A DNA stretch of 20,596 bases from the IMG/VR virus record IMGVR_UViG_3300028025_001298, positions 1 to 20,596 of that record; one strand, 5' to 3'. Positions 2,183 to 11,431 of the stretch are shown here, piece after piece. The notes under the pieces were generated by a model, which worked only from the letters and a program-made list of their open reading frames with translations, searched no databases and was not told the DNA's origin. A program made the position numbers and the translations under genes. Source of the stretch: a virus. How positions within the stretch are numbered: the stretch's first letter is position 1; the number at the start of each line of letters is the position of its first letter.

Positions 2183-2277
2183 TTGAACAACTCATTACAA
2201 GTTCATACCTCACAACGACACAGTCCTGGACATTCTTATTACTCTTTGGATATATCACATGGAGGTTTATTAAATGA
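2179..2277 (+). CDS. 32-residue membrane mini-protein before the transglycosylase
   Basis: Starts in an ATGA overlap with the gene before and ends in an ATGA overlap with the transglycosylase after. The peptide begins MIEQLITSSYLTTTQSW and carries a short hydrophobic helix (WTFLLLFGYITWRFIK). AGGGTG precedes the start. Being coupled to a secreted cell-wall enzyme, it could be a pinholin-like or targeting partner; this rests only on position and hydrophobicity. Confidence 0.5.
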   Translation: MIEQLITSSYLTTTQSWTFLLLFGYITWRFIK

Positions 2278-2693
2278 AGAGATTGTTAGCAGGGTATTTA
2301 AGTTGGTTGCTAGCATTACTATCAATACCATTCTTTCCCAGTCCAGCATACGCAGTAGCAGTAGCAACACAATTGCAAGACAACTGCATAGACATATCTA
2401 TCTGGACACCACGAATGGCGAAAGCATACGCCAGGGAATTAATGAAGTGGCATTACCCACAATGGAACAAGTCTGAATACTCAGCACTTGCCAAACTTTG
2501 GGGAAAAGAATCAGCATGGAATCACGAGGCAGTAAATGACAAGTCTACTGCAGCGGGTATCCCTCAGATTCTAGGCCTTGACCCTAACACCCCAGCCCCG
2601 CGTCAAATTGAACGGGGGCTGGAGTATATCCAACACCGCTATAAAAAACCATCAGTTGCATGGGCACATTGGCGTGCAAATGGGTGGTACTAA
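2274..2693 (+). CDS. Secreted lytic transglycosylase of the APF/SLT-like type
   Basis: 139 residues with a clear signal peptide: a basic start (MKRLL), a hydrophobic core to about residue 22, and a likely AYA cleavage site at 25-27. The C-terminal half has the lysozyme-like transglycosylase pattern of actinobacterial aggregation-promoting-factor proteins: LWGKESAWN with the presumed catalytic E79, then STAAGIPQ (91-98), YIQHRY (118-123) and AWAHWRANGWY at the end. The enzyme would cleave the glycan strand of peptidoglycan outside the membrane. It starts by ATGA overlap with a membrane mini-gene, with GGAGG upstream. It lies in the early arm, far from the holin/endolysin cluster, so it may act in something other than final lysis, or supply a second, timed wall activity. 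Confidence 0.85.
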   Translation: MKRLLAGYLSWLLALLSIPFFPSPAYAVAVATQLQDNCIDISIWTPRMAKAYARELMKWHYPQWNKSEYSALAKLWGKESAWNHEAVNDKSTAAGIPQILGLDPNTPAPRQIERGLEYIQHRYKKPSVAWAHWRANGWY

Positions 2694-5231: not shown

Positions 5232-5684
5232 ATGACAATGTACTATACAGAAGTAGATGGTGCTGAACCAACAGTATCTACTCAAGTAGGTGGTATCAAG
5301 TATACCTTTACTAATGAATCACTTACTAAACTGATAGAAGAAAAAGAACATCTTAAAATAGAACTAGCACAAGTTGAACGCAAGTTCAAAAGTGCACAGT
5401 TTGATGTAAGAGAACTCTTTCAATCTAACTATGACACAGACCAAACAGAAATCTTATGTGATGTAGATGATGTTAATAATCTACTCATCAACATAGGTGC
5501 TGAAGCATTAACTAAATCATGGTCAGCAACAGTAACTATTACAGCCACAGTTACAGGTATAGAAGCACCTAACAAAGATACAGCCGAAGATATTATTCGA
5601 GACAACATTGAACTTAGCCTAACCACAGATGGCGACATCTGGTTAGATGATGTGTCGATGAACTCAGCATATCCTGAAGCCTAA
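5232..5684 (+). CDS. Hypothetical protein, 150 residues
   Basis: I use the ATG at 5232, which follows TAGGAGATAG; the frame is open to 5205, but those codons lie inside the previous gene and lack a ribosome site. The product begins MTMYYTEVDGAEPTVS. It has a coiled-coil-like segment (about 35-60: KLIEEKEHLKIELAQVERKF), then a beta-rich part (WSATVTITATVTGIEAP) and an acidic end (DGDIWLDDVSMNS). The last part resembles a small ferredoxin-like or beta-sandwich fold. No catalytic residues are recognised. A promoter and leader structure follow directly, so it probably closes a unit. Confidence 0.7.
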   Translation: MTMYYTEVDGAEPTVSTQVGGIKYTFTNESLTKLIEEKEHLKIELAQVERKFKSAQFDVRELFQSNYDTDQTEILCDVDDVNNLLINIGAEALTKSWSATVTITATVTGIEAPNKDTAEDIIRDNIELSLTTDGDIWLDDVSMNSAYPEA

Positions 5685-5686
5685 TG

Positions 5687-5695
5687 TGATATACT
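5687..5695 (+). promoter_or_regulatory. Extended -10 promoter for the replication cassette
   Basis: TGATATACT matches TGnTATAAT at all but one position. The -35 position (about 5667-5672, GCATAT) is poor, as is common for extended -10 promoters. Initiation would be expected near 5702, at the foot of the leader hairpin, giving a leader of about 58 bases before the nuclease gene. Confidence 0.5.
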
Positions 5696-5700
5696 AATCT

Positions 5701-8123: not shown

Positions 8124-8250
8124 ATTAGAAGATGCAGTAATGTGGACCAATATGGATTACTTTGGTATACTATGTAAAGCAATATTATTAAACAAAGTAT
8201 CTATTGTTGATGGACGCATTCTTGTTAAAGCACTTAAAGAATATGAGTGA
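8110..8250 (+). CDS. Small hypothetical protein, 46 residues
   Basis: ATG at 8110 lies inside the end of the resolvase gene (14-base overlap), with AAGGA about ten bases upstream. The stop overlaps the primase zinc-domain start by eight bases. The peptide begins MKPNELEDAVMWTNMDYFG and continues with a helical run (LCKAILLNKVSIVDGRILVKALKEYE). No motif is recognised. The compact overlaps on both sides support it as a real link in the translation chain; it may act with the primase. Confidence 0.55.
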   Translation: MKPNELEDAVMWTNMDYFGILCKAILLNKVSIVDGRILVKALKEYE

Positions 8251-8632
8251 CAAGCACGACATCACTGCCTATCTAAGTTATATAGGCGCCACCCTGCCAA
8301 CGGAGGGGCATGGTTGGCGCAAGATGCGTTGTCCTTTTCACGGAGATAAACACGCATCAGCAGCGTTAAATTTTGAAGATAAAAGATTCAAATGTTTTGG
8401 TTGTGAAGTACAAGGTGATGTGTATGATTTAATTATATATAAACAAGGAGGTAATTACAGTGAGGCTATCAAATTCGCAGAGAGCATTTCTCTTGCAGGC
8501 AACAGAACAATACGCTCAACACATTCATCTAGCGGAGGAATACCTTTCAAGCCGTCATCTCTCGGTAGACGAAGCGAAAAAGTTTCATCTGGGGATAGTG
8601 AAGGACGCTCTTCCAGGACACGAGAGTTATAA
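8243..8632 (+). CDS. Primase zinc-binding (CHC2) domain protein
   Basis: 129 residues from the ATG at 8243; a longer reading from 8204 would overlap the previous small gene and has no ribosome site. Residues 28-62 form a DnaG-type CHC2 zinc domain: CPFHGDKHASAALNF...FKCFGCEVQGDVYDLI, with C30, H33, C51 and C54 as ligands. It would recognise the template sequence for primer synthesis. Helix NYSEAIKFAESI (71-82) continues the normal primase pattern. After it the sequence degenerates into a Ser/Gly/Arg-rich tail (about 83-129), exactly where the next gene overlaps in another frame. The catalytic TOPRIM part is encoded by that overlapping gene, so the primase is split into two proteins, or joined by a frameshift. 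Confidence 0.85.
   Translation: MSDKHDITAYLSYIGATLPTEGHGWRKMRCPFHGDKHASAALNFEDKRFKCFGCEVQGDVYDLIIYKQGGNYSEAIKFAESISLAGNRTIRSTHSSSGGIPFKPSSLGRRSEKVSSGDSEGRSSRTREL
8445..8451 (+). promoter_or_regulatory. Strong internal ribosome site inside the primase zinc-domain gene
   Basis: AAGGAGG lies eight bases before the GTG at 8460, within the upstream coding frame. It is one of the best Shine-Dalgarno matches in the window and argues for independent initiation of the TOPRIM protein. Confidence 0.7.
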
Positions 8633-9095
8633 AAATAGATTAGCAATACCATACATCACACCATCAGGTGTGGTGGATATAAGATTTAGAACTCTTAATA
8701 ACAATCCAGATGAACCCAAGTATATGGGTATACCTGGGGCTAAGACTACAATGTTTAATGCACAAACAGTACTAACTGCTGGCAATTACATATGTGTAAC
8801 CGAAGGTGAGTTAGATACAATAATCTTAGAAGCCAAGACAACACACTCATCTATAGGTATACCTGGAGTTAACAATTGGAAACCTTACTATAGTAAAATA
8901 CTAGATGACTTTGAAACAGTAATTGTTCTAGCAGACGGAGACAATGCTGGCTTAGAGTTTGGTAAGAAACTAAGTAGAGAACTACCCAATGTTAATCTAA
9001 TGCAAATGCCAGAAGGACATGATGTTAATAGCATCATAGTACAAGAAGGAAAGGAGTGGATAGATGAGCGAATCAGAAAATGTTTGGGAAAGTGA
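8460..9095 (+). CDS. Primase catalytic (TOPRIM) subunit
   Basis: 211 residues from a GTG behind AAGGAGG; no other start is possible in this frame because a stop lies at 8430-8432. The N-terminus (LAEEYLSSRHLSVDEAKKFHLGIV) is the usual linker between zinc and catalytic domains of DnaG-type phage primases. The TOPRIM core follows: ICVTEGELDTI with E115 (111-121), IVLADGDNAG with D159 and D161 (155-164), and PEGHDVNSII (184-193). It would make RNA primers with the helicase encoded at 6964. It lacks a zinc domain, which is supplied by the preceding gene; the two overlap for 173 bases in a +1 relation. It overlaps the next gene by 32 bases. Confidence 0.85.
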   Translation: MRLSNSQRAFLLQATEQYAQHIHLAEEYLSSRHLSVDEAKKFHLGIVKDALPGHESYKNRLAIPYITPSGVVDIRFRTLNNNPDEPKYMGIPGAKTTMFNAQTVLTAGNYICVTEGELDTIILEAKTTHSSIGIPGVNNWKPYYSKILDDFETVIVLADGDNAGLEFGKKLSRELPNVNLMQMPEGHDVNSIIVQEGKEWIDERIRKCLGK

Positions 9096-9375
9096 TGAAG
9101 AGTTATGGGATTTCATAGGAGAAAATAAAAGATTAGTTGGCCTACAAATATCTAATGGGCAGGGATTAGATATACTTAATGCATTAAGAGATATATATTT
9201 AACAATAGATGATGACCCAAAGAGTGCTATGAAAATGCTTTCACTATTAGCCACAGTTATATATGCAAGCAGCATAGGAGAAGGTCAGCAATTTACTGAC
9301 GAGATACAAGTAGCAGCAGCAATGGAACAATTCGACTCTAGTATGAAGGATATATTCAATGAAGAATCCAAGTGA
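9064..9375 (+). CDS. Acidic hypothetical protein, 103 residues
   Basis: ATG at 9064 has AAAGGAG about eight bases upstream, inside the end of the primase gene. The protein begins MSESENVWESDEELWDFIG, very acidic, and continues with helices (LDILNALRDIYLTIDDDP, MKMLSLLATVIYASS). No cysteines and no catalytic motif are visible. Its second half shows hydrophobic helices too short and mixed for membrane insertion. It sits between primase and DUF1599 genes and overlaps the latter by 17 bases. Unknown function. Confidence 0.7.
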   Translation: MSESENVWESDEELWDFIGENKRLVGLQISNGQGLDILNALRDIYLTIDDDPKSAMKMLSLLATVIYASSIGEGQQFTDEIQVAAAMEQFDSSMKDIFNEESK

Positions 9376-9640
9376 TGTAGATACAATTCTTAATGAATTG
9401 CGTAGTATTATGATGAAGAAACAAGAGGATTACGGGCCGTTGAATATTGCCCTCGCTCCTGGCGGGGCAATGAATGGGCTGCGTGTTAGGATGTATGACA
9501 AACTAGCCCGTCTGAATAACATGGCTGGTAAGGACGCCACGCCGAACTATGAGTCTATTGAGGATACACTTATAGACCTGGCTAACTATGCCATAATAGG
9601 ACTATTGGTACAAAGAGGACAGTGGGAAGGCATAGAATAA
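9359..9640 (+). CDS. DUF1599 (nucleotide modification associated domain 1) protein
   Basis: 93 residues with the full short DUF1599 pattern: KKQEDYGPLNIALAPGG (20-36), then GLRVRMYDKLARLNNM (40-55), and ESIEDTLIDLANYAIIGLL (65-83). The domain has been grouped with nucleotide-modification systems and resembles all-alpha MazG-like nucleotide pyrophosphatases, with acidic residues (E23, E65, E68, D69, D73) as likely metal ligands; biochemical function is not settled. The phage could use it to adjust the dNTP pool or handle a modified nucleotide. It starts inside the previous gene, with AAGGA nine bases upstream. Confidence 0.8.
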   Translation: MKNPSDVDTILNELRSIMMKKQEDYGPLNIALAPGGAMNGLRVRMYDKLARLNNMAGKDATPNYESIEDTLIDLANYAIIGLLVQRGQWEGIE

Positions 9641-9643
9641 AAT

Positions 9644-10300
9644 ATGACAGATGCATGGGTAGATGAATACAAGTTACTTGTTTCTACTCTTGCGTCTGAA
9701 TATTACAGGAAGTATCCAGTTACAGAAGCAGAAGATATAAGACAGGTACTATGGGTATGGTTTCTTACACATCCAGTTAAATATACAGAGTGGTCTAAGT
9801 TACCACCTAAAGATAAAGAAAGATTAATTGCTAGGTCATTACGCAATGCAGCACTTAAATATTGTGAACAAGAAAAAGCCCGCAAGGTTGGCTATGACAT
9901 ATCAGATTTATATTACTACGACCCATCAGTTATAGAAGCATTTCTTCCATCCATCATAGATAATACATATGAGATACCTAGTAAAATCAAAGACCTTAAC
10001 TTTAAGTTTGGTAAATCAGGTGAAGTAACAGACGGTAACAACTGGCTAGTTCTACGGTCAGACATAGAAAAAGCATTCAACAGATTAGCAGAGGCTAAAC
10101 AAAATATTTTAAGAATACGATTTAGTGTAGAGAACTACGAGTGGAGTGACTTAGGTAAGGAACTTAATACCTCAGCCGATGGTGCACGTATGAAGGTTAA
10201 TCGTGCACTATCTTCTTTAATAAAAATACTGGGTGGTTGGCGCACACACAGCGACTTAGATGTTATAGAAACTAAAGAAGAAGTTGAAGAGCATGAGTAA
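9644..10300 (+). CDS. Phage sigma-70-like (ECF-type) factor
   Basis: 218 residues. The N-terminal part (about 10-85) resembles sigma region 2: an acidic helix TEAEDIRQVLWVWFLTHP followed by KERLIARSLRNAALKYCEQEKARK. A variable stretch (85-140) follows. The C-terminal part (about 141-197) has the region-4 layout: AFNRLAEAKQNILRIRF, then a helix-turn-helix WSDLGKELNTSADGARMKVNRAL. The encoded protein could direct host RNA polymerase to phage promoters, for example those of the left-reading late genes. A DNA-binding regulator of related fold that is not a true sigma factor is the main alternative. The start is four bases after the DUF1599 stop, and the stop overlaps the next gene by eight bases. 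Confidence 0.7.
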   Translation: MTDAWVDEYKLLVSTLASEYYRKYPVTEAEDIRQVLWVWFLTHPVKYTEWSKLPPKDKERLIARSLRNAALKYCEQEKARKVGYDISDLYYYDPSVIEAFLPSIIDNTYEIPSKIKDLNFKFGKSGEVTDGNNWLVLRSDIEKAFNRLAEAKQNILRIRFSVENYEWSDLGKELNTSADGARMKVNRALSSLIKILGGWRTHSDLDVIETKEEVEEHE

Positions 10301-10532
10301 AGAACCTAAAGAAATAAAAGATTTGTTTAAGAAAGATTACACCAATGCTATAGACTTACGTGGCCATCCTATTGGAGATATCTGTATGTGTGGTTCACAA
10401 TTGTTTACAGCCATAGTAGCCTTTGAAGAAGGCGAGATAGCATTTTACTTTTTAGATGGTGAATGTGTAGACTGTGGCTCACTAGTAACCCTACCTACAC
10501 CAATAGATAATATCGGAATGGATTGTGACTGA
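10293..10532 (+). CDS. 79-residue protein with CxC...CxxC zinc site
   Basis: I take the ATG at 10293, which overlaps the sigma-like gene by eight bases; an upstream TTG is in frame but unnecessary. The product has a charged start (MSKEPKEIKDLFKK) and then C31 and C33 (CMCG) and C58 and C61 (CVDCG) around beta strands (LFTAIVAFEEGEIAFYFLDGE). This is a small zinc ribbon of the double-psi or rubredoxin-like knuckle type. No enzyme motif is seen. Its stop shares one base with the next start, so it is coupled to the FmdB-like protein. Possible transcription co-factor, by context only. Confidence 0.65.
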   Translation: MSKEPKEIKDLFKKDYTNAIDLRGHPIGDICMCGSQLFTAIVAFEEGEIAFYFLDGECVDCGSLVTLPTPIDNIGMDCD

Positions 10533-10693
10533 TGCCTTACTATGACTTTGAATGTAAAGTATGTACTAAAATTATAGAAACCAATGACCCTACTCCACCA
10601 CCTTGTGCTTCTTGCGGTAACATGATGCTTCGTGTATGGTCTCCTATACCAACCCACTTTAAGACAGGTGGATTTTATTCTACAGGGGGTTAA
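10532..10693 (+). CDS. FmdB-like zinc-ribbon protein, 53 residues
   Basis: ATG overlaps the previous stop by one base. The short protein matches the FmdB family along its length: MPYYDFECKVC at the start, a second knuckle PCASCGNMMLRVWSPI, and the characteristic ending FKTGGFYST. C8, C11, C25 and C28 would bind zinc. FmdB-type proteins are small putative regulators common in Actinobacteria and their phages. It is only 53 residues, slightly shorter than cellular members, and would be missed by length cut-offs. It lies directly before WhiB, giving a small block of likely regulatory zinc/iron proteins. Confidence 0.75.
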   Translation: MPYYDFECKVCTKIIETNDPTPPPCASCGNMMLRVWSPIPTHFKTGGFYSTGG

Positions 10694-10698
10694 AAGTT

Positions 10699-10986
10699 TT
10701 GATTGATTATCCAGTATGGAAAGACATACCGTCATGTACTGGTATTGATGTAGAAGTATTTTTTACTGAAGAAAAAGGTAACTATCCCCATCTTAATTAT
10801 ATTAAAAAACTATGCAGTACTTGCCCAGTACAAGTCCAATGTTTCAACTATGCAATTGAAAATTTAGTTGAAGGAATTTGGGGTGGTACTACTAAAAAAG
10901 AAAGGGATAAGTATAGAGGTAAACGTGGGATAGTTGGTAAGACAGTTGTTCCTGCTTCTGTATTTAGTGGTATAAATTATGAGTAA
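10699..10986 (+). CDS. whiB: WhiB-family iron-sulfur transcription regulator
   Basis: 95 residues, apparently starting at a TTG five bases after the FmdB-like gene; AGGGGG lies about twelve bases upstream. The four cluster-binding cysteines are C13, C39, C42 and C48 (SCTG...LCSTCPVQVQC). The GIWGG turn (59-63) and the basic stretch KKERDKYRGKRG follow, which is the DNA-contacting C-terminus. WhiB proteins hold a 4Fe-4S cluster, bind the host principal sigma factor and alter transcription; they are confined to Actinobacteria and their phages. The phage copy could redirect host transcription, or exclude other phages as reported for mycobacteriophage TM4 WhiB. It overlaps the next gene by eight bases. 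Confidence 0.93.
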   Translation: MIDYPVWKDIPSCTGIDVEVFFTEEKGNYPHLNYIKKLCSTCPVQVQCFNYAIENLVEGIWGGTTKKERDKYRGKRGIVGKTVVPASVFSGINYE

Positions 10987-11362
10987 ACTATCTGACTTTG
11001 ATTTAGATTTGTCAGTTGGTCATGAAGGTGAAGCATTGGTTAATGAACTATTAACTGGTGGCAAAACCATTGAAGTTAAGACAGACCTTAAGTGGAAGAA
11101 CACTGGCAACCTGTATATAGAAACAGTATGCTGGTCACACAACAATGAAGAGTGGTATCCGTCAGGACTATCTGTAACTAAAGCAGAATACTGGGCCTTC
11201 GTACTAGAAGGAGCAACCTTTATTGTCCCTATAAACGCACTCCGTCATGCGGTTACTTTGTGGGGACATCCTATTACGTGTAACATAGAGCCTAACCCTA
11301 GCAAGGGTTACTTAATTAAACCTGAACTAATACTTCAGGCAATCAGAGAGTTGGCTAGGTAG
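10979..11362 (+). CDS. PD-(D/E)XK-like endonuclease
   Basis: 127 residues; ATG overlaps the WhiB gene by eight bases, without a clear ribosome site. The core is DLDLSVGHEGEALVNELL with E16/E18 (8-25), TIEVKTDLKWK with E32 and K34 (30-40), and GNLYIETVCW (43-52). This is the order of small restriction-like nucleases found in phages. The rest has Trp-rich beta strands (YWAFVLEGATFIVP). No DNA-recognition domain is added, so its target cannot be predicted; roles in recombination or in host DNA degradation are possible. It is the last gene of the right-reading arm and is followed by the convergent terminator. Confidence 0.7.
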   Translation: MSKLSDFDLDLSVGHEGEALVNELLTGGKTIEVKTDLKWKNTGNLYIETVCWSHNNEEWYPSGLSVTKAEYWAFVLEGATFIVPINALRHAVTLWGHPITCNIEPNPSKGYLIKPELILQAIRELAR

Positions 11363-11377
11363 AGGGGAACTACTTAG

Positions 11378-11431
11378 AAAACAAAAAAGACCCCCGCTCC
11401 AGTAGTAATACTGGGCGGGGGATTCTTTTAT
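11378..11431. terminator. Bidirectional terminator between the convergent arms
   Basis: CCCCCGC (11391-11397) pairs with GCGGGGG (11415-11421), and CCAGTA with TACTGG inside, around a GTAA loop with one bulged T. On the minus strand the stem is followed by TCTTTTTTGTTTT, a strong T-run; on the plus strand it is followed by ATTCTTTTATTT. It stops both the early arm and the late arm. Confidence 0.9.

Follow-up and report, generated by a model that had tools for sequence, protein, structure and literature searches.

Our analysis of a 20.6 kb stretch of an actinophage record (hereafter the window) centres on four co-directional genes at the end of its early arm, which encode a protein that we take to be an ECF-like sigma factor (SIG), two small zinc-ribbon-like proteins and a WhiB-like protein. 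We tentatively favour the reading that SIG is the sigma factor of the late genes, and that WhiB acts separately, on the host sigma-A. SIG is pointed to as the late sigma by the promoter-like geometry of a conserved element upstream of the terminase genes of relatives, by its own presence wherever its position is visible, and by the dispensability of WhiB.

According to this reading, the block would be the regulatory end of an actinophage early operon. SIG, as its predicted fold and its conserved clamp-contact residues suggest, would take the host core RNA polymerase and guide it to a single late promoter before the terminase operon. The site proposed in relatives is GTTCG-N16/17-GGRTTA, placed 7-8 nt before a TAGAG-like start region, its spacer holding a further half-site, GAAC. 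In phages that have it, WhiB may dock separately on region 4 of the host sigma-A, judging from its conserved contact residues, and once docked would dampen or redirect host and early transcription, akin to the split between AsiA and gp55 in phage T4.

Organization of the window and of the four-gene block

In the ORF list of the window, the early arm reads rightward up to position 11362, and an arm of big tail-like ORFs reads leftward from 20466 to 11438. The four genes of the block (9644-10986) overlap or nearly adjoin one another, and the features of the region are as follows.

9359..9640, + strand: DUF1599-type protein (nucleotide modification associated domain 1; PF07659, E 2.7e-06)
9644..10300, + strand: SIG, putative two-domain ECF-like sigma factor, 218 aa (phrog_354, E 1.2e-16; AF2 model; PDB matches)
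10293..10532, + strand: CXC, small zinc-ribbon-like protein (C-x-C-G ... C-x-x-C-G; invariant Cys, no family)
10532..10693, + strand: FmdB-like zinc ribbon, 53 aa (TIGR02605 and PF09723, each below cut-off; Cys kept)
10699..10986, + strand: WhiB-like (Wbl) protein with four Cys, FF pair and GIWGG turn (PF02467, 58.6 bits)
10979..11362, + strand: downstream neighbour (phrog_13596, E 4.6e-45)
11385..11429, no strand: GC-rich hairpin between the convergent arms, preceded by an A run and followed by a T run (RNA fold)

The DUF1599-type gene also precedes SIG in relatives that have sequence there. The CXC ORF is listed from a TTG at 10284, and its start is more likely the ATG at 10293, which would give an overlap of 8 nt with the SIG stop (ATGAGTAA). 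The junction of CXC with the FmdB-like gene is a TGATG overlap; whiB begins with TTG after a 5-nt gap, and the phrog_13596 gene overlaps the whiB stop by 8 nt. The hairpin that follows (-29.5 kcal/mol, z -6.95, with 0 of 200 shuffles equally good) is probably a two-way terminator between the arms, and it is absent from the list produced by a simple terminator scan.

Close relatives of the window are common in IMG/VR contigs. We divided the relatives by the search that fetched them and by SIG identity, not by a tree, into branch A (close relatives), branch B, which holds the cultured Planktophila phages LanE43AprE7 (OX376640) and LanE43AprF5 (OX376641), hereafter E7 and F5, and a third branch, C.

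A conserved element upstream of the terminase genes

Since the late operon starts outside the window, relatives were used to look for its promoter. Upstream of terminase, genomes of branches A and C have in common a CGTTCG (or CGTCCG) ... GAACG (or GGACA) GATTAATACTATATAGAGG-like sequence, and those of branch B, whose SIG is about 35% identical, have GTTCGGTTTTGG ... TTGAACGGGTTATCTTATAT. The pattern GT[TC]CG-N9..14-TG[AG]AC[AG]G[AG]TTA, which allows mixed half-site forms, was searched for in 19 genomes (eight of branch A, eight of branch B, and G001, G017 and G018 of branch C). It occurs once each in 18 of them, in all three branches, against 0.05 expected for the set from shuffles that permute two-base blocks and are an approximate dinucleotide control. 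Each of the 18 elements sits upstream of TerL, and F5 and the WhiB-less genome G001 are among the carriers; the window itself holds no match to the pattern. GTTCG and GGRTTA are separated by 16 or 17 nt, the normal spacing of a sigma promoter, and in many sites a TAGAG-like start region can be seen by eye 7-8 nt after the element. A relaxed search, with one mismatch and without the GAAC half, gave 37 matches against 33 in shuffles, and we therefore claim no wider regulon.

The two half-sites change together. Among the complete or near-complete relatives, GTTC is paired with GAAC and GTCC with GGAC, and mixed pairs occur in 0 of 18. The collection was also scanned for each of the four forms, and five TerL proteins from this group of phages served as queries for TerL nearby. 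Among the matches listed, TerL follows closely in 105 of the 120 of form GTTCG..TGAAC and in 91 of the 120 of form GTCCG..TGGAC (196 of 240 for the two concerted forms), against 0 of 120 listed for the mixed form GTTCG..TGGAC and 0 of 20, a complete list, for GTCCG..TGAAC. As 110 of the 120 GTTCG..TGGAC matches listed have a 12-nt gap, most of them in isolate-genome records, it is not very informative on mixed late elements if these are rare. On a tree of 162 distinct TerL proteins, the half-site state changes 16 times, with lower bounds of 14 and 9 changes when nodes with support below 0.8 and below 0.95 are collapsed, and none of the 180 sites in this set is mixed.

Such strict coupling would fit a symmetric dimer better than a monomeric sigma, and the coupled half-sites point to a symmetric binder acting instead of, or besides, SIG. 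It is quite possible, if somewhat less probable to us, that the late element is an operator for a symmetric dimer, of phage or host origin, which would activate or repress host sigma-A polymerase at an ordinary TATA-like -10 (ACTATATAG); SIG would then have another job, for example at middle genes or host genes. The concerted switches speak for such an operator. Against it, the dimer is hypothetical, and in the nineteenth genome, G026, the GAAC half is gone, yet GTTCG and AGGTTA persist with 17 nt between them, as does SIG (L232).

We looked for SIG in the 33 element loci that lie in records of at least 15 kb, from 120 element matches listed, and found it in 17. Fourteen of the 16 records without SIG end before its position is reached: 12 shorter ones hold terminase and stop short of the SIG region, G057 ends just past the gene that precedes SIG, and G032 begins just past SIG. 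In the other two (G053 and G059), the element match is not followed by terminase and is probably fortuitous. Thus every record in which the SIG position is covered has SIG. Because SIG and the element are inherited together, this co-occurrence is no proof of recognition, and shared ancestry would predict it just as well as function. In the Streptomyces phage FlowerPower, which bears a distant SIG homologue and is the sole genome of that kind checked, no element was found in 640 nt around the terminase start.

Other sequences surround the late element. A stem-loop, GCAAGTCC-loop-GGACTTGC, lies downstream of it in the leader of some relatives (L252-L253, L270-L289), with paired changes between branch A and branch C genomes (GCAAGGTC/GACCTTGC and GCAAGTTC/GAACTTGC), and may be an RNA control element. 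Another block, TGTCCTATTTTGTA, some 50 nt upstream of the late element, hardly varies among 11 branch A and branch C genomes. An enrichment search for 9-mers in intergenic DNA returned mostly ribosome-binding sites in branches A and C and AT-rich repeats in branch B; TGTGATATACT, before the RecB-like gene, looks like an ordinary extended -10 and was set aside.

SIG as a probable ECF-like sigma factor

The match of SIG to phrog_354, a PHROG family labelled 'sigma-K factor', extends over residues 7-197. Matches to TIGR02937 (sigma70-ECF, E 1.1e-06) and to Pfam Sigma70_r4 (PF04545, E 0.0036) fall below the curated cut-off and the cut-off, respectively; Sigma70_r4 is detected at E <= 0.1 in 26 of 45 SIG members, at best with 5.9e-07. 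An AF2 model built with 45 relatives (mean pLDDT 74.9, pTM 0.48) places helices within residues 4-82 and 133-196 in a sigma2 plus sigma4 arrangement, with two more helices (94-105 and 113-118) between them. All of the PDB matches listed for this model are sigma factors by title. The sigma2 part superposes over 75 residues at 2.6 A on SigW and at 2.9 A on RpoE, and the sigma4 part over 74 residues at 3.1 A on SigL; over the whole chain the rmsd rises to about 22 A, since the model does not fix how the two domains lie relative to each other. The VIA Z values for SIG, at most 8, are modest for helical proteins and can reflect just a common helical arrangement. A Foldseek search against the PDB gave no match at E 0.001, and five predicted viral proteins reach that value, one of them named sigma-70 region 4 and another being the FlowerPower homologue. 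Compared as a sequence profile with solved structures, SIG finds SigA at E 0.002 and mannosidases at E 0.011.

Among 45 diverse members, D31 and Q34 are invariant, with the D-x-x-Q spacing that we take to be the clamp-helix contact motif of sigma-70 region 2.2. The same members have 34 invariant columns in all (D31, Q34, L36, W39, R67, N68, K78 and 27 others). By fold and motif, we take SIG to be an ECF-like sigma factor. The original prediction had called it sigma-like and named a lack of conserved polymerase-contact residues as grounds for giving up that idea; the call survives, as these residues are kept in all 45 members and both domains match solved sigmas. A pattern scan of genome contigs returned 111 matching stretches, none of them SIG-related at E <= 1e-3.

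It seems to us quite unlikely that SIG is a former sigma, now a plain DNA-binding or anti-host protein that starts no transcription. Such a history would agree with the sequence scores below the cut-offs, with the conserved motif GY..DLYYY in the linker, which we do not know from ECF sigmas, and with the Streptomyces homologues, which keep the clamp D and have G in place of Q. Both domains are nevertheless under strong constraint, as the invariant columns attest.

Gene order in relatives and the possible role of WhiB

Gene order was counted on distinct loci with enough sequence. In branch A, the SIG-fetched loci L002-L081 and L132-L149 (98 loci) left 60 after removal of 25 short ones, counting needing at least 1,300 nt downstream of SIG, and 13 duplicates. 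All 60 have the order SIG-CXC-FmdB-WhiB on one strand, and with WhiB-fetched loci included the order holds in 72 of 73, the exception, L105, having no FmdB gene. In branch B (L129 and L172-L251), 50 loci remained once 26 short ones and 5 duplicates had been set aside. In 48 of the 50, SIG converges on the FmdB, CXC and WhiB genes of the other strand; L212 has no WhiB match, and L217 has no FmdB match and a CXC match that is a false, HNH-like one. In branch C (L150-L171; SIG 62-67% identical; 16 counted, 4 short and 2 duplicates dropped), CXC and FmdB stay, and 9 of 16 loci have no WhiB beside SIG; a Pfam search of 13 branch C records, mostly short, found no WhiB. One WhiB is present in 18 of the 19 records of at least 37 kb that were scanned, and WhiB occurs in 14 of the 17 element records that have SIG. 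G001 (41,024 bases) has SIG, the late operon and the late element, and its whole record holds no WhiB match.

The original prediction placed four consecutive genes (sigma-like, CxC/CxxC, FmdB-like, WhiB) at 9644-10986, and in this it was right, both in the coordinates and in an order that recurs in every close relative counted. The conservation of gene order that it looked for in related phages extends to the close relatives but fails in branches B and C and in the 41-kb record; a SIG-WhiB operon with the same order and strand throughout the family was not found. Given the strand flip in branch B, the absences of WhiB and the common co-occurrence, the proximity of the SIG/WhiB block is old, a single transcript is not, and WhiB is its least stable member. 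CXC and the FmdB-like ribbon are the steadiest neighbours of SIG. In the WhiB-less records L166 (7235-7531) and L161, the position expected of WhiB, after the FmdB gene and ahead of the one that follows, is taken by an ORF that looks HNH-like by eye.

The WhiB of the window has the marks of a Wbl protein: four Cys, an aromatic pair (F21, F22), the Trp (W61) of a GxWGG turn, and a PF02467 score well above the cut-off of 23.6 bits. In a sequence search it matches solved WhiB1, WhiB3 and WhiB chains. In sigma-A, the last sigma4 helix is followed by a His-Pro, its His being H516, on which Wbl proteins dock; of 238 SIG sequences, counted with duplicates, none has a His-Pro beyond residue 170. Binding of WhiB3 to sigma-A4 needs each of the two Phe, the turn Trp and, on the sigma-A side, H516 (PMC10245118). 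Because the contact residues are kept and SIG lacks the His-Pro, the window WhiB looks built for region 4 of the host sigma-A. Of the 63 distinct motif segments of branch A, 60 have FF and all have the turn Trp. Branch B mostly has W-H instead of FF (LWH in 48 of 54 segments), and FF is present in 3 of 8 in branch C, and binding to sigma-A is therefore less certain in these two branches.

That SIG and WhiB bind each other as a two-part late-gene controller, the physical pair of the original prediction, is most improbable: their co-directional adjacency in branch A and their frequent presence in the same records would agree with it, but the genes are on opposite strands in branch B, WhiB is often not beside SIG in branch C, G001 has SIG and the element without WhiB, and WhiB keeps the aromatics for sigma-A4, with the docked His-Pro missing from SIG. 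A late-gene role, as proposed for the pair, stays plausible, given the conserved element before the late operon of relatives, but the element is kept where WhiB is missing.

Comparison with known systems

E7 and F5, with genomes of 39 kb and a SIG of 37% identity, are the nearest named relatives of the window; they are phages of Ca. Planktophila, bacteria that are common in fresh water. In F5, the CXC, FmdB-like and WhiB genes are close to SIG, as in the window, where the four are co-directional; in F5, however, SIG faces the other three, and an extra gene lies between CXC and WhiB, by eye resembling the product of window positions 2274-2693 (phrog transglycosylase). The part of PMC10202952 (2023) available to us reports that both cultured Planktophila phages encode a whiB-like factor and a sigma-70 factor, which might help control the host. 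The combination had been presented in the original prediction as not described, which was mistaken as to co-occurrence. The same part of that paper states that every member of its phage family encodes whiB, against which the WhiB-less G001 stands only if it belongs to that family, and it does not mention the adjacency of the SIG and whiB genes. Beyond this remark, we found no published account of how such phages take over transcription, and none of their late promoter, for which a literature search listed nothing but a review of jumbo phages.

More distant SIG homologues (22-27% identity, also in phrog_354) are found in the Streptomyces Beephvirinae JXY1, Immanuel3 and FlowerPower, where they are annotated as sigma-K factor, DNA-binding protein or similar and, as in the window, have similar replication genes nearby. 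In FlowerPower, a gene annotated as WhiB is three genes from the homologue, on the opposite strand, and the homologue is beside a phosphoesterase gene; for JXY1 and Immanuel3, the 10.5 kb covered contain no annotated WhiB.

Phage proteins that disarm the host sigma or supply a late sigma are exemplified by AsiA and gp55 of T4 and by gp28, gp33 and gp34 of SPO1. The system described here would resemble these in role, and differs in that WhiB is missing in some members. WhiB1, WhiB3 and WhiB7, as bound to sigma-A region 4 (PMC10245118), have the four Cys, the FF pair and the G[I/V]W[G/A]G turn in common with the window protein, which is a phage copy and a putative binder of sigma-A.

Rather unlikely is a wider reading, in which a single promoter of a novel form serves the late genes throughout this family of actinophages. 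It would be recognized by the family's ECF-like sigma together with a pair of half-sites in two-fold symmetry, with WhiB independently silencing or redirecting the host sigma-A. If true, actinobacterial parts would have been assembled into a way of sharing the work that recalls AsiA and gp55 in T4. A sigma candidate, and one conserved late element that the cultured F5 also carries, make the question of takeover experimentally tractable, and the same system bears on whether phage Wbl proteins act on the host sigma-A or on a phage sigma.

Zinc ribbons and other features of the window

In CXC, C34, C36, C61 and C64 are invariant among 23 diverse members from the three branches; family searches gave no match of weight, and the AF2 model is of low confidence (mean pLDDT 66.1). 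The FmdB-like protein matches TIGR02605 with E 2.1e-06 (27.7 bits, the cut-off being 31.3) and Zn_ribbon_8 (PF09723) with E 5.1e-05, and its four Cys, in CxxC ... CxxC pairs, are kept in at least 95% of 54 distinct members. Both ribbons may act as accessory factors.

Elsewhere in the window, positions 1-111 are an inverted copy of 1594-1704 (111 nt, 99%) at the contig end, probably an artefact of assembly. TGTGATATACT is found at 5683-5700, before a RecB-like gene; it is of the extended -10 type, recurs in relatives and is likely a host-sigma promoter. The DNA primase (8204-9095) is split into two overlapping genes, one for the zinc-finger half and one for the Toprim half, in relatives too.
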